A stretch of 64,000 nucleotides of DNA from Candidatus Zixiibacteriota bacterium (lineage in GTDB: Bacteria > Zixibacteria > MSB-5A5 > GN15 > FEB-12): the NCBI GenBank assembly GCA_028289585.1, contig JANQPI010000042.1:62001-126000 (forward strand), given 5' to 3'. This document shows, piece after piece, positions 9,557 to 62,061 of the stretch. The position numbers were made by a program, and so were the translations under genes. The number at the start of each line of letters is the position of its first letter. Position 1 is the stretch's first letter. The notes under the pieces are model-generated. The model was not told where the DNA came from. It did not search any database and saw only the letters and a list, made by a program, of their open reading frames with translations.

Positions 9557-9588
9557 GGTCGTGCCGCTTCGTAGCGAAGCCCTTTCCC

Positions 9589-10806
9589 CTATTCGTAACT
9601 CAGTGCCTTGATAGGATCGAGTCGCGCCGCCTTCAGTGCCGGGTAGATACCAAAGATGAGGCCGATACCGGTCGAGATTGAAAGCCCCACGCCGATCGCA
9701 AACGACGACGGCTCGATCTCCATGTTGATCTGTGTGACCAACCAGTAGGCTAACAGAAAGCCGATACCAATGCCAACCACTCCCCCGCCCAGCGTCAGGA
9801 ACAACGATTCGAAGAGAAACTGCCAGAGGATGTGTTTTTTTCGAGCCCCGATCGACTTACGAATACCGATCTCTCGGGTGCGTTCGGTGACAGCTACCAT
9901 CATGATGTTCATCACGACAATCCCGCCAACAACGACCGAGATTGATGAGATTGCCACCAGCGCCAGACGGGCCAACTGCGTGAAGCTATTGAAGAACGTG
10001 ATGATGTCATCCGCCGTCAGCATCGCGAAGTTGTCCTCGTCGTTGTACGGCACTTTTCGTTCGGATCGAAGCGCGAGTCGCACCTGATCCATCGCATCCG
10101 GCATTACCTCAAGCGATCGAGCGCGAACGGCAAACGCCATATCACTGTCGCGTGGACCAAAGAGCTTGGCCCAGGCACCATACGGCACAACAATGAAATT
10201 GTCCTGGTCATTGCCAAAGATGGCGCCCTGAGACTGGGCGACACCGATGACAAAGAACCGTTCGCCGTTTATCCGAATCGCTTGACCGATCGGATCAACC
10301 TCTGAAAAGAATGATTCTCGCACCGACTCGCCAATGAAGGCGACATTGCGACGTGCAAGGTCATCCTCGGTCGAATGAAACCGGCCCTGAGCAACCTCCA
10401 GATCGTAGATGTCGATATAGGACGATTCGCTACCGATAACAGACACTCTCCTGCTGGAGTTGCGATAGGTCACATTCGCACCACGATCCGTCATAATCGA
10501 AACGCGATCACAATCGTCGCATGCCTCTCGGATCAGGTCGCCATAGAAGTTTTCAACATTGGGCCGCTTGATCTGCTTAAGGAACTCTTCTCGACTGGTG
10601 ATGATCCCAAAACGCTGGACGTAGAACGTCTGCCCCCCGAGCCGTCCGATCTGATTCGCGAACGTATTCGTGATTCCCTCAAGAGCGGAGATGATCGTCA
10701 TGACCGACGTGACACCGAGAATCACGCCGAGCAACGTCAATCCGCTCCGTAGCTTATTGGCCCAAATGGCCGAAGCGGCGATACGGAAGATTGACGGGAC
10801 TACCAC
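9589..10806 (-). CDS. MacB-type ABC permease, first permease of operon
   Basis: 405 residues, the same length as its neighbour and largely collinear with it: SIFRIAASAIWANKLRSGL at the N-terminus, TERTREIGIRKSIGARK near helix 3, and the same KAARLDPIKALSYE end. The periplasmic CxxC motif is CDDC (REACDDCDRVSI) at the position of CPDC in the sister protein. It begins 11 bp after the ATPase gene. Most divergence between the duplicates is in the periplasmic domain, as expected if they recognise different substrates. Confidence 0.9.
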   Translation of the reverse strand: MVVPSIFRIAASAIWANKLRSGLTLLGVILGVTSVMTIISALEGITNTFANQIGRLGGQTFYVQRFGIITSREEFLKQIKRPNVENFYGDLIREACDDCDRVSIMTDRGANVTYRNSSRRVSVIGSESSYIDIYDLEVAQGRFHSTEDDLARRNVAFIGESVRESFFSEVDPIGQAIRINGERFFVIGVAQSQGAIFGNDQDNFIVVPYGAWAKLFGPRDSDMAFAVRARSLEVMPDAMDQVRLALRSERKVPYNDEDNFAMLTADDIITFFNSFTQLARLALVAISSISVVVGGIVVMNIMMVAVTERTREIGIRKSIGARKKHILWQFLFESLFLTLGGGVVGIGIGFLLAYWLVTQINMEIEPSSFAIGVGLSISTGIGLIFGIYPALKAARLDPIKALSYE

Positions 10807-10817
10807 TAAGATGTCTC

Positions 10818-11525
10818 CTAGGCACTCGCGCTCGCACGTGCCCGAGCGGTCGGTTCATCAGAAGCAATCAGTCCATCGCGGATAAAGAGAACCCGATGCG
10901 CACGCTCGGCAACATCCGGTTCGTGCGTCACCACGATCATCGTGTTACCGGCGCTATGGAGGTTCTCAAAAAGCTCCATGATTTCAATCGACGTCTTGGA
11001 ATCGAGGTTACCCGTCGGCTCATCGGCGAGAATAATCGAGGGATCGTTAACCAACGCTCGAGCGACGGCGACACGCTGACGCTGACCACCGGAGAGTTCG
11101 CTCGGCTTATGCGTCATGCGGTCACCCAGTCCCACGCGTTCCAAGGCGCGCTTAGCAGCTTCGAGACGTTCGCTGGACGGTGTCCCGTTGTAGATCAGTG
11201 GGAGTTCAACATTGTGAAGGGCGGTCGCTCGCGGAAGCAGATTGAACGTCTGAAAGACAAAGCCGATCTCGCGATTACGAATAGAGGCAAGCTCATCGTC
11301 GTTCATCCGTGCGACCGACTTGCCATTCAGGACATACTCGCCCGCCGTCGGTGTGTCCAGACACCCGATCAGGTTCATTAGAGTCGACTTACCTGACCCC
11401 GAAGGGCCGACGATCGCTACGTATTCACCGCGCTCAATCGAGATCGTCACGCCGCGCAGCGCCCGTACCGTCTCGGCGCCCATTTCGTATTCTTTGGTCA
11501 AATCTCGTGTGGCAATCAGGCTCAT
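10818..11525 (-). CDS. LolD/MacB-type ABC ATPase
   Basis: 235 residues with Walker [10 protein letters not shown] (40-48), signature [13 protein letters not shown], Walker [14 protein letters not shown] and the H-loop in [14 protein letters not shown]. The TGNLDS after Walker B is typical of the LolCDE/MacB/FtsE branch. It is the only ATPase in the operon and must energise up to three permeases. It lies 11 bp after the adaptor gene. Confidence 0.92.
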
Positions 11526-28944: not shown

Positions 28945-31323
28945 CTACGGCAGCTCTGCTCCCTGGATGTCATCGTTGCACGGTGGCGGTCCATTCAGGA
29001 ACAGATAGGAAATCAGTACCGTCAGATCCGGCAGCTCGACGAGATTATTGCAATCGGTGTCGCCGATGAGCAGCGACGGCTGCGGAGCGGCATTGACAAA
29101 CGGTGAGATGAACAGGAAGCTGATTAACCGCGATAGATCGGCGAGGTTGATCGTGCTGTCATAATTGACATCGCCGCGGAATCGCCAGACACGCAGGACG
29201 ACCGGCACCTCCACCGGACTGTTGCTCGCTCCGGATGATGACACAAGCAGCGTATCGAAATACTCGCCAAAGGGGAATCCAGCCCCATTGATATCGGCTC
29301 GATGAATCTCGCCGGCTTCTCCCGTCTGATTAACGGGGAACCACCAATCGACATCCTCGACAATCTCCCAACTCAGACACCCTCCATTCGGATTCTGAAC
29401 GGTGAAGGCATTTTGTGTGTACGGCCCGCCGCCCTCCTTGTAAGGGATACCGACCTGACTCGTAGAGAGTTCGATCTCGGGAGCAATCGCCGGGGCAGCG
29501 ACCGTAAACTCGACGATCACCTCAACCGGGCCACTCGGGTCTTTCGGCGAATCGAACGTGATCGTGTCGTAGTACACTCCGATCGGTAGTGTCGTTTGGA
29601 GTGGTGTGACCAGGAATGTTCGCGGAGCCGTTGCCGCGGTCGGCGACACGACAAAGTTGCTACTCGAGAATTGAGGAATGAGATCGACAGGATTGTCGCC
29701 ACCAATGTTCGAGATAGAGAACGAACTCGGGAGATACACCGAGTCACCCGACTGGCACTCGAACGTCCGCAGGCGAACCGTGTCCCGAGACGTGATAAGA
29801 TTCGCCGGAGTCGCGACAAAGCGCAGGACAACCTCAACGTCGAGTGGTGAGTTGATCGCTTCAGGGGACGTGATGGTGATCGTATCGCGAACCTCGGTCC
29901 CACCGAAGGCGGTCGGAACGTCGAAATCGAGGCGAACGCTATCGGGCGCAACACCCGAACCATTGTCAACGTTCACAATCCGAGCGGCGCTCTCTGTAAC
30001 GGAGTAGGTGAGCGACCCAATGCCGCCATTACGGACCTCAAATGACCGCGAAAAGTTCGGCAGCTCAGCAAGGGCGACAACGAAGAACAGCGTCGACGAA
30101 TCGAGTTCAATCGTCGGCAAGTTGCTGCCCAGATTCACAGTTACCGGAATCTTGACCGGATCGTTCGTCGCTCCGGATGCGGTGACTGTAATCGTATCGG
30201 TGAACGTACCAAGTCCCAATGAGCTAATGTCAACCACGACAGAGACGTCACCGGAGTCGACACCGGCCATCGGCATCAACGTTAACCACGGCTCCATATT
30301 GCTGACCGACCAGTTGAGCGTCCCGCCCCCCGCGTTCGTAATCGTCAATGTCCGTGGCGCCGGATTCGGATCACCAACCAACGCGTTGAACGTAAACGAG
30401 GGATCACTCACACCGATTTCCGGCAGCGGTTCAGCCAACGTGAATTCGACGTAAATATACTGCGGGTTGTTAGCCGCCGACGGAGCGTCCACCTCAATCG
30501 AATCGATGTAGAGACCAGGTGTCAATCCGGCCTGCGATACCGACACCGAGACGTTACGCGGCGTCGTTCCAAACGACGGTACTTTGGATAGCCAGGGAGC
30601 GTTTTCGATAAGCGTGAACGGGAGTTGCTGTGCGGACGATGTGATGTCAACCGACTGAGGCAACGGATTCCCTTCGCCGGCCACAGCAGCGAAGAAAAGA
30701 CTGTCCGGAGCAACCTGGATGTTTGCCGGAGGCACAAACGCTGTGTCCCGGATGACAAGCGTGCCGGAGAACGCCGGGACGTACGGAATGTTATTCGGCG
30801 GTGGCGCAGCGATGATAAACTGCAACTCGGCCGCTGAGTTGAACGCATTGGTATCGATGACAACCGAGTCCGACAGTCCCCAGGACGTCGCAGTAAAATA
30901 GTAGGTCGCCATCAGCTGACGACCCGGATCGGGTTGGAGATTTGCTGCAAGTGCGACACCGGCAAACTGAAACAGTTGATTGGCGTTGGAGGAGTCGATG
31001 TTGTTCGCGAAGAAGACAAACCGCTGCAAATCAAAGGCAGCTAATGCGGCGGGCGAGAACACCGCCGAATCGAGTACGAAGTTGGGGTTGTCCCACGAGA
31101 AGCCACCGCCGGTCAAACCGATCGTGTTGGCATCATTGAAGTACGATAACTCCAGAATGAGATCGGTCTGCGCCGTCGCAACATCGGGAATCGCCACCGC
31201 CTCGATAATGACGGTATCCGCAGCCCCCAAATCAGCGGGATCCTGCATGAATTGCGCCGGCACCGTTCCGCCCAGGCCGACGAGAAGAAGTGTGAGAAGA
31301 AGGCAAGTTCGCACGCGTGACAT
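28945..31323 (-). CDS. Secreted BACON-repeat protein with cohesin-like N-domain and dockerin-like C-terminus
   Basis: 792 residues from the ATG at 31323 (GGAGG 7 nt upstream; signal peptide MSRVRTCLLLTLLLVGLGGT). Residues about 30-190 resemble a cohesin-type beta-sandwich. Then come about five repeats of 90-100 residues of BACON type, with FNALVGDPNPAPRTLTI and AGGGTLNWSVSN as the best example. The last 70 residues form a dockerin-like pair of calcium loops (GDVNYDSTINLADLSRLI, then GDTDCNNLVELPDLTVLI). Probably surface-exposed or extracellular. Its own promoter (31489-31518) and terminator make it monocistronic with a leader of about 160 nt. Confidence 0.85.
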   Translation of the reverse strand: MSRVRTCLLLTLLLVGLGGTVPAQFMQDPADLGAADTVIIEAVAIPDVATAQTDLILELSYFNDANTIGLTGGGFSWDNPNFVLDSAVFSPAALAAFDLQRFVFFANNIDSSNANQLFQFAGVALAANLQPDPGRQLMATYYFTATSWGLSDSVVIDTNAFNSAAELQFIIAAPPPNNIPYVPAFSGTLVIRDTAFVPPANIQVAPDSLFFAAVAGEGNPLPQSVDITSSAQQLPFTLIENAPWLSKVPSFGTTPRNVSVSVSQAGLTPGLYIDSIEVDAPSAANNPQYIYVEFTLAEPLPEIGVSDPSFTFNALVGDPNPAPRTLTITNAGGGTLNWSVSNMEPWLTLMPMAGVDSGDVSVVVDISSLGLGTFTDTITVTASGATNDPVKIPVTVNLGSNLPTIELDSSTLFFVVALAELPNFSRSFEVRNGGIGSLTYSVTESAARIVNVDNGSGVAPDSVRLDFDVPTAFGGTEVRDTITITSPEAINSPLDVEVVLRFVATPANLITSRDTVRLRTFECQSGDSVYLPSSFSISNIGGDNPVDLIPQFSSSNFVVSPTAATAPRTFLVTPLQTTLPIGVYYDTITFDSPKDPSGPVEVIVEFTVAAPAIAPEIELSTSQVGIPYKEGGGPYTQNAFTVQNPNGGCLSWEIVEDVDWWFPVNQTGEAGEIHRADINGAGFPFGEYFDTLLVSSSGASNSPVEVPVVLRVWRFRGDVNYDSTINLADLSRLISFLFISPFVNAAPQPSLLIGDTDCNNLVELPDLTVLISYLFLNGPPPCNDDIQGAELP

Positions 31324-31488
31324 CGGAAGGCCTCCCTGTGCTGTGTCCAATTCGTTACGTTTACCTAACAGTCCCTGGCGACGAGAAGCGACAACTGAAC
31401 CCGGACGCATGAACGGTATTATCGAGAGCATTGAAACGAGAATATGCGTGACCGAGGGACGGCCGTCGCCGACTTGTCCCTATACACA

Positions 31489-31560: not shown

Positions 31561-34056
31561 CTAGCGTCGTGACGAACGGCGACGGCGAGGAGATTTAGCC
31601 GCAGGTGAAGGGCGCCCTGTTTTACGGCCCCGTCGATTGCGGGTGCGCGCTTTGTCGATCTCCTCGTGAAACAGTTTCTCGAGTGTGAAGCTGGACGGCT
31701 GGAAATCAAGCAAACAGATCGCAAACAATTCGTCGACCCGTTCAACCAGGTGAAACGTTGTCTCACCAATGACTTCCGCGGGTAACTCCTTCAGATCCTT
31801 CTCATTCCCTTTCGGCAACACGATCTCGGTAATCCCCGCGCGGAACGCCGCCGCGACCTTCTCCTTGATCCCCGCCACCGGAAGAATGCGGCCACGCAAC
31901 GTCATTTCACCGGTCATCGCGATGTCATTACGAATCGGCCGTTCGGCCAACACCGATGCGATAACCATGCAGACCGCTACACCGGCCGATGGACCGTCTT
32001 TGGGAATCGCCCCCGACGGAAAATGAATGTGGAGATCAAACTCCCGAAAATCGTTCGGATCGATGCCCAGCACATCGGCTTTGGAGCGAACGTACGAGTG
32101 TGCAGCCTGGATCGATTCGCGCATCACATCGCCAAGCGATCCGGTCGTAATAATCTGCGCATCGCCGCGCATCTTCAGCCCTTCGATGAACATCAGTTCG
32201 CCCCCGGCCCCGGTCCAGGCCAGACCCGCGGCGGTTCCGATCTCGGGTGCTGTTTCCGCTACTTCAGGCATGTAGAGTGGGGTGCCAAGATAGCCGTCGA
32301 GATTCCGCTCAGTCAGTGTCCAGACCCGCTTCCGTCCCTCTGCCTTTTCGAGCGCAATCTTGCGGCAGATCTTCTCAATCTGCTGCGAGAATGCCAGCAA
32401 ACCCGCCTCGCGCGTGTAGCCGGTGATAATCAGTGACAGCGTACGATCGGAAAGTCGGACCTCTTTCCGCCTCAAACCATGGCGCTCGCAAATCTGCGGC
32501 AGGATGTACTTCTTCGCGATTTGGATCTTCTCACGCTCGATGAAGCTCGGCATTTCCAGGATGTCAAAGCGGGGAATGAACGGCTCCGGAAGATCCTCAT
32601 AAGATTGCACCGAACAGATGAACAGAGCCTGACTAAAGTCAAAGGGGACACCAAGATACTCGTCGATGAAGCGATGATTCCGGCGGGCGTCGATGATGCT
32701 CAGCAACGCCATGTTCACGGCGGCATCGTTGTCGAGATTGAAGACGTCGATATCCTCGACGAGAATGACGGGGTCGACAGTTCGACACTGGCGGAGCCGT
32801 CGCAGGAACCGACCGGACTGAGCTCCTAAGAAGGTCCGGGATACCCCCCGCAATGCCGTGGGATCATTGACACCGCCCACGGAGATACGAACAAACTCAC
32901 GACCCATGGCACGAGCGACCGCTCGCGCCAACGAAGCCTTGCCCGTTCCGGGTGCTCCGACCAGACAGAGTGTCGGTCCGCGATCGGTCCCCCCCAGAAG
33001 TTGTCGCACCGAAAGTCGCTGAAGCACCTGTTCACGAACCGTCCTTGGGCCAAAGTAGTCCTGGACAAGGATGCCCTCAGCAACCCCAATATCGAGCCGC
33101 TGATTGGAGGTCTTTCCCCACGGCAAGTTGAGCAGGAGGTCGAGGTAGCTCTTGATAACGCCGAATTCGGATGAACCCGGCGAGAGTTCTTTCAAACGGT
33201 CGATCTCGATCCGGGCGCGGTTCACCACCTCCGGCGGCAGCTCCGTCCGCTCGGTCAGGATCTTAGTCCAGCGGGCAGCCTCTTTCTCCTCCCGAAAGTC
33301 CTCTCCCAACTGACGTTTGATCTCGACCAGTTGTTGGCGAAGCACGTGCCGCCGTTGGTCTTCCTCAATCTGCTTGCGAGCGTTCTCGTTGATCGAGAGA
33401 ACAGTCGCGATCCGTGACCGCTCCTGCTCAAGACACGATATCAGCTGCTCGTAGCGACTTTCCAGCGGGAGCGTTTCGAGAAGTTCCTGCTTGGCGCTCA
33501 GTGAGAAGTGGAACGATGCCGCCACCCGATCGGCTAACAGGTCGGGATCCTCGCGGTTGTGCTCCAATACCCGGGACAACTCCGGCGAGTAGATCGGATC
33601 GAGCTGCGTGATCTCCGCAATCAGACGGAACGTCGTCGCGATTGCGTCCTGAAGACCGATCGATACCGAAGCTGCCGGCTCGAGTCGAGCCACGGCGGCC
33701 TGCAGCACCGGCTCGCCGGTTGCCACCGATTGGATGGCGACCCGCTCCCGCCCCTCGATGGTCGCCGACACCGAGCGCCCGGGTCCCTCCTGGAGATCGC
33801 GAACGATTGCGAGCGTACCAACCTGGTGGAGCGGCTGGCCGGTCGGGATCTCAATGTCGGCATGGGAATAGGCGCAGATGAACGAGGAATTGGACCGCAG
33901 GGCGGAGCGAAGCAGGCGCAGGTTCTCAGGACGGCCGATCTGCAACGTCAAGGTTGTTCGGGGGAAGAGTACCGCCGTCATGAGCGGCAATAGTGGGTAG
34001 ACGGTATCCCGGTCGGCCGAGATGATAGGCAATGGATGACGGCTACGTATAATCAT
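31561..34056 (-). CDS. lon: Divergent Lon-family ATP-dependent protease
   Basis: 831 residues in Lon order: N-terminal LON substrate domain (YPLLPLMTAVLFPRTTL), coiled linker, AAA+ module, protease domain. The Ser690-Lys731 dyad is intact (KDGPSAGVAV, AGIKEKVAAAFRAG). The ATPase differs from typical Lon: Walker A is GAPGTGKAS rather than GPPGVGKTS, the Walker B D-E pair is swapped to E-D (VILVEDIDVF), the sensor-1 asparagine appears replaced (FICSVQS), and the pore loop is FLGAQSGRF. The last 30 residues are mostly Arg/Lys/Ser/Pro, a basic tail not seen in ordinary Lon. It follows the helicase gene by 95 bp. It may be a second, specialised Lon. Confidence 0.88.
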   Translation of the reverse strand: MIIRSRHPLPIISADRDTVYPLLPLMTAVLFPRTTLTLQIGRPENLRLLRSALRSNSSFICAYSHADIEIPTGQPLHQVGTLAIVRDLQEGPGRSVSATIEGRERVAIQSVATGEPVLQAAVARLEPAASVSIGLQDAIATTFRLIAEITQLDPIYSPELSRVLEHNREDPDLLADRVAASFHFSLSAKQELLETLPLESRYEQLISCLEQERSRIATVLSINENARKQIEEDQRRHVLRQQLVEIKRQLGEDFREEKEAARWTKILTERTELPPEVVNRARIEIDRLKELSPGSSEFGVIKSYLDLLLNLPWGKTSNQRLDIGVAEGILVQDYFGPRTVREQVLQRLSVRQLLGGTDRGPTLCLVGAPGTGKASLARAVARAMGREFVRISVGGVNDPTALRGVSRTFLGAQSGRFLRRLRQCRTVDPVILVEDIDVFNLDNDAAVNMALLSIIDARRNHRFIDEYLGVPFDFSQALFICSVQSYEDLPEPFIPRFDILEMPSFIEREKIQIAKKYILPQICERHGLRRKEVRLSDRTLSLIITGYTREAGLLAFSQQIEKICRKIALEKAEGRKRVWTLTERNLDGYLGTPLYMPEVAETAPEIGTAAGLAWTGAGGELMFIEGLKMRGDAQIITTGSLGDVMRESIQAAHSYVRSKADVLGIDPNDFREFDLHIHFPSGAIPKDGPSAGVAVCMVIASVLAERPIRNDIAMTGEMTLRGRILPVAGIKEKVAAAFRAGITEIVLPKGNEKDLKELPAEVIGETTFHLVERVDELFAICLLDFQPSSFTLEKLFHEEIDKARTRNRRGRKTGRPSPAAKSPRRRRSSRR

Positions 34057-34151
34057 AAACAGGAAGCGGTTCGGAGGTTATACCGATCCGCTCCCTGTAG
34101 GTATCGGCCGGAAAGCCGTTTTGATCCATGGTCTCCGCGAGGGAAAGACGA

Positions 34152-36824
34152 TCAATGCACGGCTGAACTCTCTTCGCTGAAGAGCGAGCGAATTTCCCAG
34201 TCCGGATGAGCGGCCAGAAGTTGACGATTGAGCCGAATCTGATTCGGGTCGACGGCCAGCCGGTAATAGCCAAGGCGATTGTTTTCAACCAAGCCACCGG
34301 CGTCAACACCCGAAGGGGCAAGCTCTGATTTCATCCGATACAGGTAGCGGGCTTGATTGAAGCCGGTCTCCAGGTCGTCCTTGTAAACCCAGCCACTGTC
34401 TCCGTGGACTCGTCCGTGGGCGAGTTTGGTCAGATATTTGAACGACTTGCCGGTCAACCGTACCGGTTGACCGTTCACCTTGATCAGAAATCGATCCCCC
34501 TCAAAACTTCCATCGATATCCAGCGACAGGTGATCATCACCGGCGGAGACGATTGCCGTTGCACTTGGATACGCCATAGAATCCTCCTCTACATCACGTT
34601 GAATAAGCTTATCGATGTCCTGACATATCTGCTTGTTGCCGAGAATGGATTCGCGCCGGCTGAGAGACGCCTGACGCCAATCGTCGAGTGACCGAATTCC
34701 GGCGTGCCAGAGCGCCCCACAATCGCGTCGACCCAAGCGGTCCCCGGCCCGACGAACGAGATCCCGATACACCCGCGGCACGCCCATCTGACAAGCGAAC
34801 GCTTCGTTTTCGAGATCGGACGCAACCTCATCGCTCAGACGCGCCGCTCGCATCAGCCCTGCCATGCCGCGCAGGCGATGAGCCACATCACGACCGAGCT
34901 GCTGAAACGCTCCCAACGACGCCCCGAAGTTCGCTTCCAAATCGGCAATTGATGTCAGTTGCTGCCACTCGCGGAAGGCGAGAATTGCTTTGATTCGCGC
35001 GGCCTCATGGAACGCAAGAGGCACGGTGGCGTGGGTGGTCGGAAGATGACCGGCAATCTCTGATAGCTTGGCATCGTCCGCGAATTCCTGATAGAGCCGC
35101 CGCACCCAGAGATTGGTGCGCCGTTCCAACGATGACAACCAACCGGATGGTGCCCGCCAGCTTGGTGTATCGAGTGCCTCGGCCCACCAGGCCTCGGGCG
35201 CGGTCGGCCATCCCTGCCGCCAGCGATCAAGCAGACGAATCGCCTCATCGACCGCAAAAATTGAATCGACGGTCGCCGCCCCGACATCGGTCGGCTCCCA
35301 GCAGACCGTTTCACCGAACGGACGCACCCGAATCATGCCGGCGGCAACAAGCTGCCGGGCAGCAGCAGCAATAACCGAGTCGGTCGACTCTCGATCGGGG
35401 TCCAAAGCGTGCTGCCACAGACGAGAGGCATCTTCGGGCGTTCGGCAGCAACCGGTCACGATGAAGGCCAGCAGGCGATCCACCACCGGGCGAGAGGCCC
35501 ATACCGACGTAATCTCCGGTTGCTGAGTGGGTGAAAAATACATCTCCCACACCCCCTCAGCATCGAGGCGATTCGCAGCCATCACGATCGCCCGGCCCGG
35601 TTGATCGGATAGTCCGAAGCGACCAGCTCGACCAATCATGTTATCGAGATCAAGCGCCGGTACCGGAACGGGAACGGGTTCACCATTCCCGGTTCCGGCG
35701 TGATACCGTAGCGCTTCAAGGAAGACCGACGTGGCCGGAAGATTGACACCAAGCGCGAGCGTTGATGTTGCACAGATCAATCGAATGTCACCTCGCCGAA
35801 ATCCGTGTTCAACGGCTCGACGTTGCGTCACGGAGAGATCTGCCGTGTGAAACGCAACCCCCGCAGAAAGCACCTGGCGCAATTGTGCCAGTAACCGCGA
35901 GGGCTCCTCCCCCGAGAGCGCGTGGAGTGTCGTTTCCGAAAGGCGGGACGGCAGACGACTGGCCAACGTTTGGGCAAGACGAACCGCCTCGGCCCGTGAT
36001 TTGACAAAGACGAGCGTCGGCGGTGGCGCAGCAACCATCGCATCGACAACCGCCTCGCGGATATCCTCCCACGTATCTCCATCCCCAAACGGTTCTTCGA
36101 CTTCGGTACCGGTATTGAATGAGCGCAGCCGCAACTCGCCGGGTGATGCAACACCGTGCCAGAGATCAACCGGCCGCTGGTCGACAGCAACAACTCCGGC
36201 ATCCAACCAGGTAGCCAGCTGCCGACAGGATCGATCGGACACGCGGCCAGCGAGAGCAAGAAGGCGCGGCCCCTCGTGACGCGCCCGGAGTGAGATAAGC
36301 AGCTGCTCGAGTTCACTCCCGCGCGCGCTGTCGGCCAGCATCTGCAGTTCATCGATCACCACCAGACCGAGTGACTCGAAGAGGGTGGGGAATCGACGCC
36401 ACAACCGAATCCCCTTCTCGATAACCGCGACCACGATCTCGAAATCTCCCCGTCCGATCTGCCGAACGGCGGAGGTGGCGTGATCGGCGGTCAGTCCCCG
36501 ACAGCGGACATTCAGGGGCGCAAAGACGGTCTGCCAGCGCTCGACCAGCTCCTCGACCAAGGATTTGGTGGGAACGACAACGAGCGCCTTGCGGCGATCA
36601 AGGAGCGTTCTGGCGATCGCCAGTTCGGCGCAGAATGACTTCCCCGACGACGTCGGACCGGAGATCAGGAGATTACCCAGAGATGCCTGTTGACCGGGAA
36701 AGCCGATCAATCCATTCTGGATCGCCGCGACCTGAAGCGGTAGCAACTCCCCCCGCTGCCGCCCCTGCCAGCCCTCAATCAGTACTCGAGGGAGGCCGTA
36801 TGCAGTTACCTCGGCGAGTTGCAT
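34152..36824 (-). CDS. Ski2-like DEAD/DEAH helicase with OmpR-type winged helix at the C-terminus
   Basis: 890 residues. Motif I GPTSSGKS (56-63), motif Ia VVVPTKSLVEE, motif II DELQ (158-161), later CATSTLALGVNLPA (motif V) and MIGRAGRFG (motif VI); the arrangement is that of Ski2/Hel308-type helicases, with a helical region after the core. The last roughly 110 residues fit an OmpR/PhoB Trans_reg_C domain: PVRLTGKSFKYLTKLA, then YLYRMKSEL and NRLGYYRLA, in the order of the family. Such a fusion is new to me. The ATG is 3 bp after the zinc-ribbon stop and lon follows 95 bp downstream. Confidence 0.83.
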   Translation of the reverse strand: MQLAEVTAYGLPRVLIEGWQGRQRGELLPLQVAAIQNGLIGFPGQQASLGNLLISGPTSSGKSFCAELAIARTLLDRRKALVVVPTKSLVEELVERWQTVFAPLNVRCRGLTADHATSAVRQIGRGDFEIVVAVIEKGIRLWRRFPTLFESLGLVVIDELQMLADSARGSELEQLLISLRARHEGPRLLALAGRVSDRSCRQLATWLDAGVVAVDQRPVDLWHGVASPGELRLRSFNTGTEVEEPFGDGDTWEDIREAVVDAMVAAPPPTLVFVKSRAEAVRLAQTLASRLPSRLSETTLHALSGEEPSRLLAQLRQVLSAGVAFHTADLSVTQRRAVEHGFRRGDIRLICATSTLALGVNLPATSVFLEALRYHAGTGNGEPVPVPVPALDLDNMIGRAGRFGLSDQPGRAIVMAANRLDAEGVWEMYFSPTQQPEITSVWASRPVVDRLLAFIVTGCCRTPEDASRLWQHALDPDRESTDSVIAAAARQLVAAGMIRVRPFGETVCWEPTDVGAATVDSIFAVDEAIRLLDRWRQGWPTAPEAWWAEALDTPSWRAPSGWLSSLERRTNLWVRRLYQEFADDAKLSEIAGHLPTTHATVPLAFHEAARIKAILAFREWQQLTSIADLEANFGASLGAFQQLGRDVAHRLRGMAGLMRAARLSDEVASDLENEAFACQMGVPRVYRDLVRRAGDRLGRRDCGALWHAGIRSLDDWRQASLSRRESILGNKQICQDIDKLIQRDVEEDSMAYPSATAIVSAGDDHLSLDIDGSFEGDRFLIKVNGQPVRLTGKSFKYLTKLAHGRVHGDSGWVYKDDLETGFNQARYLYRMKSELAPSGVDAGGLVENNRLGYYRLAVDPNQIRLNRQLLAAHPDWEIRSLFSEESSAVH

Positions 36825-36827
36825 ACG

Positions 36828-37010
36828 CTATCCACAGCAACCATAGCCACAGCCCGGACAGACACTGCAACCGGACTGACGAATCATTCCGGCGCCACAA
36901 TCAGGACAGGTTTCGGCATTGACAAAGGTCACCGGTGAGTGCTTGGCCACCCCCCAATCGAGGTCGTCACGAGTCTCAACGGCAGGTTTGATGGCGATCT
37001 GGTCTTCCAT
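36828..37010 (-). CDS. Zinc-ribbon microprotein resembling the C-terminus of B12-dependent ribonucleotide reductase
   Basis: 60 residues from the ATG at 37010 (GGAG 8 nt upstream). The second half holds two CxxC pairs, CPDCGAGM and CSVCPGCGYGCCG, as in the zinc ribbon that ends NrdJ-type reductases (CPxCG...GCxxCxxCGYSxC). Stand-alone it could bind DNA, RNA or a partner protein. The TAG stop is 3 bp before the helicase start, which makes co-expression almost certain. A strong sigma70-type promoter lies 48 bp upstream. Confidence 0.8.
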   Translation of the reverse strand: MEDQIAIKPAVETRDDLDWGVAKHSPVTFVNAETCPDCGAGMIRQSGCSVCPGCGYGCCG

Positions 37011-37057: not shown

Positions 37058-37086
37058 TGTATACTGCACATTTGAGCATCTGTCAA
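37058..37086 (-). promoter_or_regulatory. Strong promoter of zinc-ribbon/helicase/lon unit
   Basis: On the minus strand a perfect TTGACA (37086-37081), 17-bp spacer, TATACA (37063-37058). Transcription would start about 41 nt before the zinc-ribbon ATG. Confidence 0.7.
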
Positions 37087-37343
37087 GCCGAAGGAGGCTT
37101 TTTTTATCGATTCTGAAGAGTGCTCGGCTGTAGTCGGTGGGAATTGAGCGTTGACGAAACCCGGCGTTCGGCCCTATCTTATTGTCTGTGGTTGGCTTAC
37201 CTCACCTCACGCTGCCACCCACCAGTAAGATTCAGTTTACCCGAAACTGCCTGACTCCATGGACGTTTATAGATGTATGCCGGTGGGCGTAGCGCCCCCC
37301 GCCTCACTGTGTGACAGTCCGCCGAACATTTGAAGGAGCCGAA
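37087..37343. other. Intergenic region between divergent units
   Basis: Between the zinc-ribbon promoter and the choice-of-anchor gene. A weak 5-bp hairpin (AAGCC/GGCTT) followed by seven T lies at about 37085-37106, pointing rightwards; it is too short to call a terminator. The plus-strand promoter at 37151-37180 leaves a leader of about 155 nt. Nothing else is recognised. Confidence 0.5.
37151..37180 (+). promoter_or_regulatory. Promoter of choice-of-anchor B gene
   Basis: TTGACG (37151-37156), 18-bp spacer, TATCTT (37175-37180). Confidence 0.5.
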
Positions 37344-39194
37344 ATGACTCGGAAGTCGATCTCTTGCCATCTGATTGTCGCCGCGACGATTTTAGGACTC
37401 GCCATGGTCGCCGGGCCCGTAGGCGCCATTCCGCCACCGCATCTCGTTGATTCGGCTCAGGCAGCGATGGAGGCGGCCGCGAACGGGCGAACGACTCCCA
37501 CGACGCAGTCTGCCGCACAGGCGAGTGAGGCCGGAGATTATCAGTTCTGTCTGCTCGATGAGGTGCAATTCACCAACTTTGGCGGAAGCGACATCTGGGG
37601 CTGGCAGCATCCGGATGGCCGAGAATACGCCTTCATGGGGGTTTTTGAAGGGATCGCGGTCTACAACGTCACCGATCAGGTCCTTGTCGAGACGGTCATC
37701 GGTCCGCAGAACAACTGTGGCGGATCGTTCTGGCGCGATTTTAAGAACTACCAGAATTACCTCTACGCAGTCACCGAATGCACGGGTACCAATCAGGGGA
37801 TTATCATTCTCGATCTGTCGACCCTGCCGAACTCGGTGACGTTTGTTGATCGCTTCGCCACCAGCTTCAATAACAACACCCACCACAATGTCTCAATCGA
37901 TACCGTTCAGGGGTACCTGTACGCGGTCAACCCGCCCGACAACGGCGTCCGGGTGTGGAGCCTGGCGGATCCGGAAAACCCGCAGTTGATCGGTGACATC
38001 TTTACTGGTGATTGTCATGACATGTTCGCTCACAACGACACTTTGTACGTTGCTGAGGGGAACAATAGTAGCTGGTCGATCTGGGATGTTTCCGACAAGC
38101 TGAATCCGGTTGAAATCGTCAATGTTATTATTCCCAATTCAGGCTACGTTCACAACGTATGGCCAACTGCCGATCGCCGCTATGCGGGCACGACGGAGGA
38201 GACCGTTGGCAAGACGGTTAAAATCTGGGACATTCAGGACCTTCAAAACATCCAGCTGGTGGGCGAATATCCGGCGGTGAACAGCCTCGCCCACAACATT
38301 CATTTTGAAAATGGTCGCGGTTACATCTCATCGTACAGCGCCGGCGTCGTGATTCTTGATATCTCCGACCCCAACAATCCCGTCGAGTCCGACCGCTTCG
38401 ATACGTTTACCGCAAATGACAATCCGGCGTTCGATGGGTGCTGGGGGATCTACCCACACACAGCAACAGGCAAGATTTACGCATCGAATGACGACGGACG
38501 GCTCTTCATTTTCCAGGAAGTGCTGATCGCCGACGGTGATACGCTCAGAGCCGGATTCGAAACGGTCGAACCAGCCTCGCTCGTCTCGATCGACATCAAC
38601 CTGACCAATGCCAATTCCGTAAACGAGATCGTTCTCCCCATCGACTGGAACGGGCCGTTCAATCTGCTGTTTGATTCGGTTTCCGTAGCTGGAACGCGGG
38701 CCGATGGATTCACACTGGCGCTTATCGCCGATGGTCGCGCGAGTGGCCGCGTTGTGTACGATCTCCTCGGAAACGGCCTCGAAATTCCGCCGGGTGATGG
38801 ACCGATTGCGCGGGCCCACTTCCGCTTCCCCGGTGGAACACCGGCCGGTGACACGAATGTCGTACGCGTCGACGCAGCTCTCCTGCAGACGGCGAAGATT
38901 GCGAACGACTGTTTCTCGGTGAATCTCCCGAGCGTGGCGGGGGCGTTCGTTCTCCCCCCCGATCCTGCAACCTGCTGTGTTGGAACGACCGGGAATGTCG
39001 ATTTCGATGGCGGCGATACGGTTGGGCTCCCCGACCTCTCGGCACTGATCGACCATCTCTTCATCTCGTTCGCACCGCTGTCATGTCCCGACGAGGGTGA
39101 TATTAATGCCGATGGCGACGTTGGTCTTCCCGATCTCTCGGCGCTGATCGACAACCTCTTCATCACCTTCACGCCGTTGCCCAACTGTCCGTAG
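37344..39194 (+). CDS. Secreted choice-of-anchor B (LVIVD-type) protein with cohesin-like and dockerin-like domains
   Basis: 616 residues from the ATG at 37344 (AAGGAG 7 nt upstream; an earlier in-frame GTG has no ribosome site). Signal peptide MTRKSISCHLIVAATILGLA. Residues about 55-390 are LVIVD-type propeller repeats, each near I-D-I/L-S-D-P-x-N-P, with conserved His in NTHHNVSID and SLAHNIHFENG, matching choice-of-anchor B proteins. Then a beta-sandwich of about 140 residues like cohesin, and two calcium loops (VDFDGGDTVGLPDLSALI and GDINADGDVGLPDLSALI) like dockerin. Probably exported to the surface. Terminated by the hairpin at 39229. Confidence 0.85.
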   Translation: MTRKSISCHLIVAATILGLAMVAGPVGAIPPPHLVDSAQAAMEAAANGRTTPTTQSAAQASEAGDYQFCLLDEVQFTNFGGSDIWGWQHPDGREYAFMGVFEGIAVYNVTDQVLVETVIGPQNNCGGSFWRDFKNYQNYLYAVTECTGTNQGIIILDLSTLPNSVTFVDRFATSFNNNTHHNVSIDTVQGYLYAVNPPDNGVRVWSLADPENPQLIGDIFTGDCHDMFAHNDTLYVAEGNNSSWSIWDVSDKLNPVEIVNVIIPNSGYVHNVWPTADRRYAGTTEETVGKTVKIWDIQDLQNIQLVGEYPAVNSLAHNIHFENGRGYISSYSAGVVILDISDPNNPVESDRFDTFTANDNPAFDGCWGIYPHTATGKIYASNDDGRLFIFQEVLIADGDTLRAGFETVEPASLVSIDINLTNANSVNEIVLPIDWNGPFNLLFDSVSVAGTRADGFTLALIADGRASGRVVYDLLGNGLEIPPGDGPIARAHFRFPGGTPAGDTNVVRVDAALLQTAKIANDCFSVNLPSVAGAFVLPPDPATCCVGTTGNVDFDGGDTVGLPDLSALIDHLFISFAPLSCPDEGDINADGDVGLPDLSALIDNLFITFTPLPNCP

Positions 39195-39464: not shown

Positions 39465-40202
39465 CTAGTTCAACGTGAACTCATAGGTCCAAACAACCCA
39501 GACAAAGACCGGATTACCGTTCTGAATGCCGGGTTTGAACTTGCACTTGTAGGCAGCCTCTTCAGCGGCCAGGTCAAGACTTTCGACACCCGACGAGCGA
39601 GCGATCTTCACGTCCTGGACTTCGCCCTTCGGATTCACCAGGCCCTGCACCGCAACCGTCCCGGTTAACCCGGCTTGGCGCGCCAACTGCGGGTAGTCAG
39701 GTTGTGCTCGTTCGAGCATCTCCGGCTGAATCTCCAGCGGCACAAAGTCCTCGGGAGCCGGGATGAAATCTTCCTGGATGTCGATGACGAGATCATCGCC
39801 CGGTCCCGCGCCTTGGTCGAACGTCGGCACAGAGATATCGGCCAGCTCCTGCTGAGTCGCAATGACGACATCCTCATCCATCAACTCGTCGTCGGCAACC
39901 GGGGTCGGAATACCGACTTTCGGCACCTGGACCTGCTGCTGGACCTGAACTTTGGGCGGCCGACGCTCAATCTGCGGCGGCGGCGGGATGTCGCGGATCG
40001 TCTGAATAACGACCGGCGCGGCGATAATCTCGGCCTCATCGGCGGCCGTCAGAATTTTATAGAGCACTGCCGAGCCGATAATCGTGAGGACGAGTCCGAG
40101 GGCGATCAGCGTCGCGAACGTGAAGTTCCGCTGGTACTTCGCCTTTAGCTCGAACGCCCCGTACGGGGAGTAGAGCGGATTGTATTTATCTTTGTTGGCC
40201 AT
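39465..40202 (-). CDS. tonB: TonB-family energy transducer
   Basis: 245 residues: cytoplasmic N-terminus with YSPYGAFELKAKYQRNF, one membrane helix (about 30-50), a Pro/Val/Gln-rich periplasmic linker with PPPPQIERRPP, an acidic stretch, and a C-terminal TonB domain (RAQPDYPQLARQAGLTGTV, FKPGIQNGNPVFVWV). It would transmit ExbB/ExbD proton-motive energy to outer-membrane receptors. It is the last gene of the module, 47 bp after the larger exbD. No TonB-dependent receptor is encoded in the window. Confidence 0.93.
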   Translation of the reverse strand: MANKDKYNPLYSPYGAFELKAKYQRNFTFATLIALGLVLTIIGSAVLYKILTAADEAEIIAAPVVIQTIRDIPPPPQIERRPPKVQVQQQVQVPKVGIPTPVADDELMDEDVVIATQQELADISVPTFDQGAGPGDDLVIDIQEDFIPAPEDFVPLEIQPEMLERAQPDYPQLARQAGLTGTVAVQGLVNPKGEVQDVKIARSSGVESLDLAAEEAAYKCKFKPGIQNGNPVFVWVVWTYEFTLN

Positions 40203-40249
40203 ACTGTTACCCCACCTTTTTGGCGGTTATCTATCCGTTATACACCGGA

Positions 40250-40900
40250 CTACAGTTTTCCTTCCGTCTGCGCCTGGTCGACGGCAGCCACCATAACCCG
40301 ATCGTCGCGGTCCTCCCAGTTGCCAACCGCATATCGATATGAAAAGCGCTCATTGCGCTCGAGGTCGAGAACATCCTTGTCCAGATCATTCGCGATCCGA
40401 GCGTTCCAGGATCGTTCAATAAGATCGATTTCGTCGAGAAGATTAATCAAATCTCCGTATGTGCCATCGGGATGAATCAGAATCAACGTCGACAGACGAG
40501 GATTCTCGCGGTTCTGGCCGATCAGCAGCGACTGCAGCGTATCGGCCCAGAACTGATAGGTGACCGTGTCCGGAGTGGCCGGTGCGGTCGGCAGCAGGTT
40601 CGGCAAGTTGCCACCCTCGGCGATCCCGAGATGCCACCAGTAACGGCTTTCGCTGTCGACTCGGAGCGTGAGTAGGTTCGACTCACGAACCTCAAGTTCA
40701 CCTTCCTGCTGCTCTTTCGGCGGCAGGTTGATCTCCATCGCCTGCGGCATGGAGAAGACGGTCGTAACCATGTAGAAAATGAGAAGGAGAAACGCGATAT
40801 CGACCATGGGGGTCATGTCGAGAATGATCGAGATTCGTCGTTTTGGCCGGCGCTTACCCTTTTGGGGTTTTTGTGCGCGTTCAGCTACTTCACCGCCCAT
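40250..40900 (-). CDS. exbD: ExbD/TolR-family protein, enlarged copy
   Basis: 216 residues, about 60 more than the adjacent copy. Basic N-terminus, then ISIILDMTPMVDIAFLLLIFYMVTTVF, the ExbD/TolR helix with its proton-carrying aspartate (MVDIAF). The periplasmic domain is longer, with an insert (about 90-150) and a charged tail. AAGGA lies 8 nt before the ATG. It is separated from the shorter copy by 104 bp, the widest gap in this operon, which holds a 7-bp inverted repeat (40923-40929/40959-40965). Confidence 0.92.
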   Translation of the reverse strand: MGGEVAERAQKPQKGKRRPKRRISIILDMTPMVDIAFLLLIFYMVTTVFSMPQAMEINLPPKEQQEGELEVRESNLLTLRVDSESRYWWHLGIAEGGNLPNLLPTAPATPDTVTYQFWADTLQSLLIGQNRENPRLSTLILIHPDGTYGDLINLLDEIDLIERSWNARIANDLDKDVLDLERNERFSYRYAVGNWEDRDDRVMVAAVDQAQTEGKL

Positions 40901-41004
40901 ACCGGCTATCCTTTATCTGGCGACTGTCATGTCAGTCTCTCCTACAGGGGCGACGACGTGACAGTATCTTTCGTTCAATGTGAACTGACGATCCCCATTT
41001 GGGA

Positions 41005-41475
41005 TCACTCAAGCTCGTTACTCGTGATGACCAGGATCTGGTTGATATTGATATCCTGCATCTGACTCATCACGTCCTGCATCCGACCGAATGACGCTCC
41101 GGCATCGGCCTTGACAACAACCAGTGCCTTGGGGTTGACGGCACGTCCACGGCCAATTTCGACTGCGATTGAGTTATCCTGCACAGTCCGGACGCGACGC
41201 GCCTTGACTTCCTGCTGGACACCCTCAACGATCATCGGGACACGTTCGATCCAGTCGACATAGATCGAATCAAGCGCAGACACGGTAACGTTGATAATGT
41301 CTTTTTTAGGCAGCTCAATCTGGGAATGCGACGTCGGCAACTCGACGGCCTTCGCCTCCGGTGGTTTGAACTGAGTCGTCGCCATGTAGAAGATCAAGAG
41401 GAGGAACGCGATGTCTACCATCGGCGTCATATCCAGCTTGATCGAAACGCGGCGTTTCTTCTTGATCTTAGACAT
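41005..41475 (-). CDS. exbD: ExbD/TolR-family protein, standard copy
   Basis: 156 residues. KKRRVSIKLDMTPMVDIAFLL followed by the rest of the helix is the same as in the larger copy, again with the conserved aspartate. The periplasmic part ends in MQDVMSQMQDININQILV. It lies 19 bp after exbB. Two ExbD-type subunits per ExbB suggest a heteromeric stator plug. Confidence 0.93.
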   Translation of the reverse strand: MSKIKKKRRVSIKLDMTPMVDIAFLLLIFYMATTQFKPPEAKAVELPTSHSQIELPKKDIINVTVSALDSIYVDWIERVPMIVEGVQQEVKARRVRTVQDNSIAVEIGRGRAVNPKALVVVKADAGASFGRMQDVMSQMQDININQILVITSNELE

Positions 41476-41494
41476 AGTCGCTTACGCTTTGAGT

Positions 41495-42256
41495 TTAGCG
41501 TCCTTCTTTCGCCCGCAACAACTGCATGACTTCGAACGATGCTTCGTCGGTCGTGTAGTTAAACGAGTCTACTTTGTTCACAAAGAAGTTGTAAAAGAAA
41601 ATACCACCAATACCGGAGGCCAATCCACCAGCGGTGTTGATCAACGCTTCGGAGATTCCAACGGCGAGCTGCTGAGCATCGATGACTCCGCCCTCAACGT
41701 TACCGGTGGCAGCAAAGGCGCGAATCATACCGATCGTCGTTCCCAGAAGACCGACCATCGTAGCGATCGACGCAATCGTCGACATGGCAATCAGGTTACG
41801 TTCCAACAGCGGCCCTTCGAGCGCGTTCGCTTCCTCGATGGCGGCCTGCGTCATTTCGAGGCGCTTTTCGCCGTCAACCGACTCATCACCACGCAACGCC
41901 CGATACTGCTCAATGCCGGCACGCAGAACGTTGGCGGTGGTACCGCGCTGCTTGTCGCAGGCGGCCAGGGCACCGTCGTAGTCGTCGTTCTGAATCAGGG
42001 TGACAAGCTTCTTGAAGAAGACCTGCACCGACGATTTACCCTTGGCGACGCCGTAGAGGGAAAAGTAGCGCTCGATGGCGAAGACGATCAACATGATGAG
42101 GATCGCAATGAGCACGATAACGAGCGGGCCACCGTGGTAGATCGACTGCAAGATCGTACCCGGTTCGGCCTGCGCAAAGATACCATAGAACAGGCCAGCG
42201 CCGATCCCAAAAGCGACCAACGTGTTGAGAGTGATAAAGAGTGTTTGCTTAACCAC
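41495..42256 (-). CDS. exbB: ExbB/TolQ/MotA-family proton-channel protein
   Basis: 253 residues with three helices: about 10-30, 38-62 (VLIAILIMLIVFAIERYFSL), and the long pair at 140-215 containing STIASIATMVGLLGTTIGMIRAF and ALINTAGGLASGIGGIFFYNFF. The threonines of the proton path are visible in GTTIGM. It carries protons with ExbD. It is 34 bp after the 371-residue membrane protein gene. Confidence 0.94.
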   Translation of the reverse strand: MVKQTLFITLNTLVAFGIGAGLFYGIFAQAEPGTILQSIYHGGPLVIVLIAILIMLIVFAIERYFSLYGVAKGKSSVQVFFKKLVTLIQNDDYDGALAACDKQRGTTANVLRAGIEQYRALRGDESVDGEKRLEMTQAAIEEANALEGPLLERNLIAMSTIASIATMVGLLGTTIGMIRAFAATGNVEGGVIDAQQLAVGISEALINTAGGLASGIGGIFFYNFFVNKVDSFNYTTDEASFEVMQLLRAKEGR

Positions 42257-42290
42257 GAGTCTGATTCCTCCAAACTATCTGCAGATTTCC

Positions 42291-43406
42291 CTAAATCTCA
42301 ACTCCCTTGACCGCCAGCAGAATGAATCCGGCCATCGACACCAGAAGACCGATGGAGAGCGTGCCAAGATAGACAGCGACTCCATAGGCATCGCCGAGGC
42401 TGTTGTAGACGCTGGCGGCGTCAATTGCATACGTTCCCCCAAGGAACGACAGAGCGAATGTCAGGCTAACCACGATTGGCGCCACCCATCCGATTTTCAG
42501 CATCTTCTTGAGTTTCAAGGCAACGCTGTCGGCGTCCCCTTTCAGACCCCAGATTCCGTAGAGGCAATAGAACGGGCCAACGATGCAGAGCACCGTGTAA
42601 AGGACCAGTAAAACCGTCGTGAGAAGTATGCCGATTCCCGATCCAAAGAGCACCGATCCGGCGGGACCAAGCAAGCCGAATCCGCTGATACCGTTCCAGG
42701 TCGTGCGGTCGCGAATGACCTCCGTCCGCTGGATTGCGGCCGTAATCAACTGTTCCTGCGGATCCTCAGTCGGAATCGCTGCCGGCTCTGCGGGGGTGGC
42801 CGCCGCCGTGTCGGCAAGCGGGTCGATCTCCCCGGCCGGCATCAGAAGCGCAACGACGGGTTCACTCGCTGTTTCCACGAGCGCTGTCGCCGCCACCGTA
42901 TCACCCACCGCAAGCAGATTGCGGACAGAGTCGATAGCCCCGACCGGAAGCAGCCCGGCGACTTGCGCCTGAACCTCTACCGAGGCGGCATCAAACTGCC
43001 CCAGCATAGTCGCGACATCAAATGGCGCCGCCGTTTCTGTCGGCGGCGGTGTTGGCGGCTCGTTCTCGACGATCGTTTCGTTGTAGACCGAATACCACGG
43101 CAGGAAGAGCGATGCGAGCACGAGGAGAGCCGCAAATGTCATTACGACACGCTCGGAGAAGGAGACGCGCGGTTGCAGCAGCGTCGCATCCTCGCGGATA
43201 ATATCCTGCTTGGACCGCTTCTCAGCGACCGTGGCGCGGAGTTTATCCTCCTCGCCGGGCCGGAACAATTCTCGGGGGTTACCGGGAAAGACATCGAAGC
43301 CGATATATGTCAGTCGCTGACGTTCGCTGACGCGATTTTCGGCTTGCCCTGCGGAATCGTCACCCGACGATGATCCGCTCTCTTTTTCCATCTCGGTTTC
43401 AGCCAT
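42291..43406 (-). CDS. Membrane protein of unknown function in the TonB operon
   Basis: 371 residues, not recognised as a named family. The N-terminal 85 residues are charged and probably cytoplasmic. A first helix at about 88-108 (MTFAALLVLASLFLPWYSVY) leads to a periplasmic, alanine/proline-rich segment (about 110-240), then about four helices to the C-terminus. It lies between the TPR gene and exbB in an otherwise tight operon, so a role in assembling the energy-transducing complex is possible but is only inference. Confidence 0.75.
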   Translation of the reverse strand: MAETEMEKESGSSSGDDSAGQAENRVSERQRLTYIGFDVFPGNPRELFRPGEEDKLRATVAEKRSKQDIIREDATLLQPRVSFSERVVMTFAALLVLASLFLPWYSVYNETIVENEPPTPPPTETAAPFDVATMLGQFDAASVEVQAQVAGLLPVGAIDSVRNLLAVGDTVAATALVETASEPVVALLMPAGEIDPLADTAAATPAEPAAIPTEDPQEQLITAAIQRTEVIRDRTTWNGISGFGLLGPAGSVLFGSGIGILLTTVLLVLYTVLCIVGPFYCLYGIWGLKGDADSVALKLKKMLKIGWVAPIVVSLTFALSFLGGTYAIDAASVYNSLGDAYGVAVYLGTLSIGLLVSMAGFILLAVKGVEI

Positions 43407-61900: not shown

Positions 61901-61934
61901 TCCCGTACACTCGGAAAGGAGGTGGTCAACATAT

Positions 61935-61970
61935 ATGAGTTTTGACTGTAGTGAGGTGACTGCTAGCTAG
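61935..61970 (+). CDS. 11-residue ORF MSFDCSEVTAS in the orphan transcript
   Basis: ATG-to-TAG, 12 codons, with GGAGG 12 nt upstream (rather far for efficient initiation). It contains one cysteine and no hydrophobic run. It could be a leader-type peptide, a precursor, or a ribosome-docking site with no functional product. Confidence 0.4.
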   Translation: MSFDCSEVTAS

Positions 61971-62027
61971 TTGCCGACCCCATCGATTTCCGTTGGGAGC
62001 GCTAGCTAAAACCCAACAGAATCACCG

Positions 62028-62061
62028 AACGAGCCCTCCTTTCCGGACGGCTCGTTTTTTT
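62028..62061 (+). terminator. Terminator of the orphan small transcript
   Basis: Stem AACGAGCC/GGCTCGTT (62028-62035 with 62049-62056), 13-nt loop, then an unbroken run of T on the plus strand. On the minus strand no T-run follows, so it acts rightwards. The last bases overlap the stop of the neighbouring lipoprotein gene. Confidence 0.82.

Follow-up and report, generated by a model that had tools for sequence, protein, structure and literature searches.

On balance, we favor the explanation that a helicase gene in a 64,000-nucleotide stretch of DNA from a Candidatus Zixiibacteriota bacterium is a Zixibacteria-specific, vertically inherited genome-maintenance gene that gives two proteins from one frame, with a motor-dead Lon protease alongside. 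The stretch, which we call the window (the whole stretch analyzed), comes from contig JANQPI010000042.1 of a 3.15 Mb source genome in 55 contigs. The long product would be a Hel308-type fork helicase with a sequence-reading OmpR/PhoB-type winged-helix tail; the short product would be the free winged helix, begun at an internal Shine-Dalgarno (SD) sequence and ATG exactly on the domain boundary. The features that carry this argument are as follows.

34152 to 36824, minus strand: helicase gene, 890 amino acids (aa), Hel308-type and Ski2-like, with a C-terminal winged helix.
34583 to 34588, minus strand: internal SD sequence AGGAGG, 5 nucleotides (nt) ahead of the in-frame ATG at 34577.
34152 to 34577, minus strand: predicted short product, a free winged helix of 141 aa; its internal ATG is Met750 of the helicase.

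The candidate internal start lies in the linker that joins the Hel308 body to the winged helix. Residues 750-764 are disordered in the model, and Glu747 and Met750 are invariant (20/20 rows) in an otherwise variable linker. The DNA at this point reads GTAGAGGAGGATTCTATG in the window and, for example, AAAGAGGAGGTTGATATG in a relative. All 41 distinct open reading frames (ORFs) of the window's order that hold both domains have an in-frame ATG with an SD-like sequence at the domain boundary; the set represents 41 of 42 order loci, with L052 omitted as it ends before the winged helix. The anti-SD energy at these sites averages -10.9 kcal/mol and is at or below -8 in 38 of the 41, while the spacing from SD to ATG is 4-6 nt in 35. 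Such energies are uncommon elsewhere—the -8 threshold is reached at 2 of the 47 further Glu-x-x-Met sites that these genes contain and at 42/907 other ATGs (order and class together). The internal site is also stronger on average than the helicase's own start, which has a mean of -7.8 and is at or below -8 in 21/41; in the window, the two values are -12.0 (internal) and -3.1 (own start).

Two further properties of the DNA point the same way. The Glu codons before the internal Met are strongly biased (GAG:GAA 67:9, against 1380:1306 elsewhere), and in one locus (L071) the SD is retained although the codon phase has shifted. The mRNA at the internal ATG is more open than the gene mean in 41/41 ORFs, with a mean z of +1.45 compared to -0.07 over 567 other ATGs (p 4e-19). 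Together, the SD and ATG at the domain boundary and the open mRNA make it probable that the gene yields both a full-length helicase and a free protein of ~141 aa, and we hold this two-product reading with fair confidence.

The winged helix itself occupies helicase residues ~768-882, and no other part of the protein is as well conserved as its last ~115 residues. The isolated domain is predicted at a local distance difference test score (pLDDT) of 88.5, and in a structure search the 50 rows shown are all OmpR/PhoB-type or related regulators, many with Z of 8-10; the top entry among the matches listed is BaeR (Z 10.1, 90 residues aligned, 2.6 Å, VIA-align). By predicted fold, the C-terminal domain is thus an OmpR/PhoB-type winged helix. 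It shares this fold with the OmpR/PhoB effector domains, but differs from them in being joined to a helicase rather than a receiver domain and in lacking a Pfam match—the window's domain gave no match to any Pfam family, and no winged-helix model (including Trans_reg_C) appeared among the 30 members scanned. The helix at the OmpR recognition-helix position opens with an Asn-Gln pair that hardly varies, a hint that the DNA target is conserved.

A single winged-helix match was found in 37/39 genomes searched. Where the internal start is absent, no separate winged-helix gene was found in 20/21 genomes searched (the G067-G070 and G099-G122 sets), and G069 has an extra short match at a contig end; with one match per genome, families that lack the internal start show no evident stand-alone gene for the winged helix. 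The only clear second copy in the 39 genomes is at G090:C20:38135-38518 (minus strand), in a 237-aa ORF away from the helicase of a start-bearing genome.

Residues 1 to ~745 are, by sequence and by model, a Hel308-type, Ski2-like helicase. Pfam finds DEAD and Helicase_C, the superfamily 2 core motifs are intact (Walker A GPTSSGKS, motif II DELQ, and GRAGR), the PRK02362 model covers residues 4-747 as a full-length match, and the best solved relatives by sequence are Hel308 (2p6r, 9b15). The AlphaFold model (pLDDT 84.9, alignment of 20 sequences) is predicted to have the five-domain Hel308 fold over its full length: RecA1, RecA2, winged helix, ratchet, and C-terminal domain. Its residues 1-743 align to Hel308 9b15_B with Z 32.7 (672/680 residues, 2.8 Å). 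Hel308 is described for archaea and metazoa (PMC10484726), and the motif IVa given there is F/YHHAGL. The window's helicase shares with Hel308/Hjm/HELQ the whole five-domain body (predicted), the core sequence, and the PRK02362 match; in contrast, it is bacterial, its motif II is DELQ, its motif IVa is altered, and it has an extra OmpR-type winged helix and a putative internal start. An earlier note on this DNA had considered a stress- or damage-related role possible, and a Hel308-type helicase does fit DNA repair or recombination. In one relative (L148 in G070, ~8736-11423), separate frames of 581 and 315-319 aa, with a stop between them, hold the helicase body and the winged helix; this split near the domain boundary is either natural or an assembly error.

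The helicase was matched in 59/61 close genomes and in 124/132 genomes of the phylum, including 76/78 of good quality. In a helicase tree (rows shorter than 450 aa left out), the 19 family groups of the phylum—coded f1-f19, with f1-f4 making up the window's order—require 18 label changes, the minimum possible. Every family stays together, so the helicase passes down by vertical inheritance. No other branch of the family comes near that of the window's helicase in length (1.52 vs a median of 0.37); unlike the helicase, the window's Lon was not flagged for a long branch. A pattern scan of genome contigs gave 62 loci, and those relatives that carry a name are, with few exceptions, Candidatus Zixiibacteriota or GN15; the scan patterns are order-specific and hence do not delimit distribution beyond the phylum. 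Five loci labeled Calditrichota, Calditrichaeota, FCB group (two), and Ignavibacterium proved, from contig number and position, to be contigs of genomes of the order itself, and a Vampirovibrionales match (L140) is without the winged helix. Viral contigs gave no relatives with order-specific patterns, which would miss distant ones, and a mobile or phage origin was set aside on this result.

The helicase gene has two neighbors on its strand.

36828 to 37010, minus strand: zinc-ribbon gene, 60 aa, with its stop at 36828 and its ATG at 37010.
31561 to 34056, minus strand: Lon3 gene, 831 aa, the third Lon paralogue of the genome.

The ORF list confirms the layout given in the earlier note: three minus-strand genes in the order ribbon, helicase, and Lon, with gaps of 3 bp and 95 bp. 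In the window's order, the ribbon is upstream of the helicase in 38/41 loci with enough sequence (the three f3 loci are the ones without it), and Lon lies within 400 bp, downstream and on the same strand, in 35/41; of the others, five have Lon at 1.0-4.8 kb and one has it in opposite orientation. Since this gene order is kept in relatives whose helicases are only ~32-42% identical, the arrangement is beyond chance. Outside the order, Lon is adjacent (within 400 bp) in 5/36 loci, with 2 more at 542 and 789 bp, these cases falling in f5, f9, and f10; the ribbon is beside the helicase in 12/34. In f18 and f19, the Lon3-family gene instead adjoins a TldD-like protein, an M1 peptidase, or both in 7/8 loci inspected. 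These counts from outside the order indicate that ribbon-helicase-Lon is a lineage-specific neighborhood and not an obligatory three-gene system; the helicase and Lon are separable genes that came to be neighbors inside a larger syntenic block. On the upstream side, this block contains TPR, MotA/TolQ-, ExbD-, and TonB-like genes (the TolQ/ExbD/TonB names were assigned by eye, not through a family search), and on the downstream side a BACON/dockerin protein, an M1 peptidase, and a MiaB-like gene.

In Lon3, the motifs of the ATPase motor are degenerate.

32752 to 32958, minus strand: within Lon3, the interval spanned by two degenerate motifs, Walker A (GAPGTGKAS, Ala in place of Thr/Ser) and Walker B (Glu-Asp in place of Asp-Glu).

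Besides Lon3, the genome encodes two canonical Lons (941 and 917 bits). Lon3 itself scores 657 bits on TIGR00763, above the cut-off of 608. Pfam finds LON_substr_bdg (E 6e-33), AAA, Lon_lid, and Lon_C in Lon3, corresponding to the LonA architecture; the catalytic dyad Ser690/Lys733 is intact and the tail is rich in Lys/Arg. The motor motifs do not have the functional residues: the window's Lon3 has A374 in Walker A, E434-D435 in Walker B, and Gln at sensor 1. This loss is general across 63 Lon3 rows (rows shorter than 500 aa omitted; L151 and L201 are one gene). Ala replaces the Walker A Thr/Ser in 43/63, the Walker B Asp-Glu is retained in 0/63 (Glu comes first in 58, and the second position is Asp in 52, Gly in 6, Glu in 3, and Gln in 2), and the sensor-1 Asn is present in 2/63. 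The catalytic Ser and Lys, in contrast, are present in 62/62 readable rows, and six canonical Lon rows retain every motif. In a tree, a fully supported branch separates the Lon3 rows from these six. The loss is also graded: Walker A carries Ala in the order and f5 but still Thr/Ser in f9 and f10, whose Walker B is Asp-Asp, and the deep families have Glu-Gly, Glu-Glu, Glu-Gln, or Glu-Asp in Walker B.

Judged from these motifs, Lon3 is probably an ATP-independent peptidase with a dead ATP motor, and by analogy it likely cleaves substrates that are already unfolded. The term AAA+ protease used in the earlier note misleads because the Walker B acid pair is gone in every row examined. The closest comparison is MtaLonC (PMC3391209), a Lon without ATPase that degrades unfolded substrates only and lacks the LonA N-domain. 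Lon3 resembles LonC in the Ser-Lys dyad, the degenerate Walker B and sensor 1, and in some rows the Arg finger; unlike LonC, it carries the N-domain and the full LonA length. From its sequence, Lon3 looks like an independent motor loss within the LonA lineage, and our search found no literature on a degenerate LonA. The family provides a graded natural series, from an intact Walker A to a lost one, in which an AAA+ protease sheds its motor but keeps the LonA shape and peptidase. Our best reading is that Lon3 neighbors the helicase system in the genome and may be a partner of it, but is no core component.

A number of results weigh against the explanation we favor, and those on the internal start also bear on an alternative: that the winged helix is a mere fused DNA-binding tail and the SD-like sequence a by-product of a Lys/Glu-rich helix end, with no second protein made. 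Lys-Glu-Glu peptides favor AGGAGG in any case; codon resampling of the same peptide already gives a mean of -6.8 (observed, -10.9), only 2/41 ORFs are individually below 0.05, and the Fisher-combined p of 9.5e-4, from rows that are not independent, is of only modest significance—much of the SD signal therefore sits in conserved Lys/Glu residues. The openness test is not fully independent either, since purine-rich sequence itself lowers RNA structure, and where a gene has several eligible Mets the one with the strongest SD was chosen. Nor is the site phylum-wide. Outside the order, an ATG at or below -8 is found in 14/37 genes (f5 3/3, f9 2/2, f10 1/2 with GTG in the other, f18 2/2, and f19 6/6), while the conserved SD and in-frame start at the boundary are absent in 22/37 class ORFs, with a strong internal ATG in 0/22 genes of f6-f8 and f12-f17; in these, the fusion exists without the site. 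The same families, however, show that the domain join alone does not create such a sequence. A by-product would also sit poorly with an invariant Met750 in a disordered linker, with the GAG bias, with the few strong SDs at other Glu-x-x-Met sites, with the SD retained across the phase shift in L071, and with mRNA that is open in every order ORF; we regard it as unlikely. Other points count against other parts of our explanation. Direct repeats upstream of the ribbon (5-mers only) revealed no operator that stood out; the 5-mer GTGCA occurs at 10-bp spacing in 4 of ~38 such stretches, with a shuffled maximum of 2. Motif IVa is FHTADL in the window and mostly FHNADL or FHSADL in relatives, which departs from F/YHHAGL, and the NCBIfam Hel308 model NF040935 gives 161-163 bits against a curated cut-off of 1200; for these reasons we say Hel308-type and do not file the protein as a member. 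Finally, Lon is unlinked to the helicase in most deep families.

This last point bears most directly on the reading of the earlier note, in which ribbon, helicase, and Lon form one nucleoprotein remodeling and degradation machine. Its proposed neighborhood survey, in which helicases mostly found without ribbon or Lon would tell against the idea, divides by lineage: both genes do accompany the helicase within the order, whereas outside it Lon is mostly apart. As an obligatory unit, the three-gene system does not survive the low linkage in other families. Order-wide synteny on one strand and the conservation of both Lon3 and the helicase are in its favor; however, adjacency is weak evidence because a wider block of unrelated genes is also syntenic, and intervening sequence in five order loci, the opposite orientation in one, the other peptidases beside Lon in f18 and f19, and the lost Lon motor motifs all argue against it. 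We consider a single machine improbable. Still further from the data is an anti-phage defense system related to Hachiman (HamAB) or BREX. PADLOC HamB models do match the helicase core (best 4.1e-29) and BrxL matches the Lon protease domain (5.8e-15), but among the genes scanned with PADLOC neither ribbon nor Lon matches HamA, sequence comparison puts solved structures of Hel308, not HamB, nearest, and the order-specific patterns found no relative in viral contigs. With its near-universality in the phylum (124/132 species), vertical tree, and missing partners, we have rejected the defense reading as highly improbable.

Returning to the two-protein explanation, we propose how the products might work together. 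OmpR-family domains pair on direct repeats, and by this analogy the free winged helix would pair with its tethered counterpart on DNA that both bind. The amount of free winged helix could then tune where on the DNA the helicase loads, or repress the operon. We put forward this co-binding role tentatively, at somewhat less than even chances. By analogy with Cas8/Cas11 (PMC11899642), the small product could serve as a subunit in fixed stoichiometry; the NrdJ-like ribbon would be an upstream partner gene. A more elaborate version is speculative and in our view doubtful: a two-protein helicase complex, which would be new to bacteria, in which free winged-helix subunits join the tethered one and load the Hel308-type motor at defined sites or stalled forks, while the motor-dead Lon receives substrates that another engine, perhaps the helicase, has unfolded, coupling nucleic-acid remodeling to ATP-independent proteolysis.

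The nearest precedent for the gene arrangement is Cas11, which arises from an internal in-frame start in the cas8/cas10 genes of type I-B, I-C, and I-D CRISPR systems (PMC11899642); in Haloferax volcanii, the small internal-start part is required for full activity. The likeness is that, from an internal start, the helicase gene would also yield the C-terminal part of its large product as a protein of its own. The differences are that the helicase is not CRISPR, that its short part is a winged helix, and that mutation and mass spectrometry demonstrated Cas11b whereas the helicase case is proposed from sequence. Literature searches on Zixibacteria with Lon protease and on Zixibacteria with Hel308 found nothing, and one on Hel308 being lacking in bacteria turned up only a remark that concerned RecA; each component has a known relative, and the combination is without precedent within the literature searched. 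Should the internal start prove real, a conserved DNA-binding protein is being overlooked by automatic annotation throughout a bacterial order, and the gene is a simple and testable case in which a motor and the DNA-binding subunit that goes with it come from one frame. The near-universality of a Hel308-type helicase in a bacterial phylum also bears on the spread of archaeal/metazoan-type fork helicases.

The ribbon protein ends in CPxCG...CxxCPxCG...C, resembling the tail in NrdJ, the B12-dependent ribonucleotide reductase, and matches positions 722-759 (the last 38 residues) of NCBIfam NF006417 with an E of 1.4e-7. An alignment of 35 rows has eight invariant positions, six of which are cysteines, and a variable N-terminus. 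The cysteine pattern and tail match are thus common to both proteins; the window's ribbon differs in being a free 60-aa protein with a variable N-terminus, placed ahead of a helicase. A nucleic-acid or redox role is possible. On contig C21 of the same genome (L142, 1489-3132, minus strand), part of an NrdJ-like ribonucleotide reductase ends in a related ribbon.

The putative promoter of the three genes is near the ribbon start.

37059 to 37087, minus strand: putative promoter TTGACA-17-TATACA, a sequence pattern just upstream of the ATG at 37010.

This site scores 10/12 and is one of 6 in the 64-kb window that reach at least 10/12; it was not listed by the built-in promoter scan because its -10 hexamer is without T at position 6. 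The consensus promoter described in the earlier note is therefore present as a pattern, and its description as strong is plausible on that pattern. The ribbon ORF has a second in-frame ATG farther out, at 37079; the -10 hexamer lies downstream of it, which makes the ATG at 37010, preceded by GGAGAG, the likelier start. A plus-strand terminator-like stem and T run at 37085-37100 overlaps the -35 hexamer. The built-in scan listed no terminator-like sites in the 95-bp helicase-Lon gap, and a second promoter-like site, TTGACA-18-TATATT, lies at 31518-31489, ahead of the gene after Lon3.

Some features of the surroundings deserve a brief mention. The TPR and TolQ/ExbD/TonB-like cluster (window 39465-42310 and beyond) is syntenic with the helicase block across much of the order. 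Secreted-looking proteins are encoded on both sides: 28945-31431 (minus strand) with BACON and a weak dockerin, and 37311-39194 (plus strand) with LVIVD repeats. Similar dockerin-ended proteins occupy the corresponding place in many loci, and the M1 peptidase that lies downstream in many relatives is missing from the window. At 61907-62063 (plus strand), Rfam matches Ms_IGR-5, an actinobacterial small RNA family, with 52 bits against a gathering threshold of 45—an unexpected family in this phylum.

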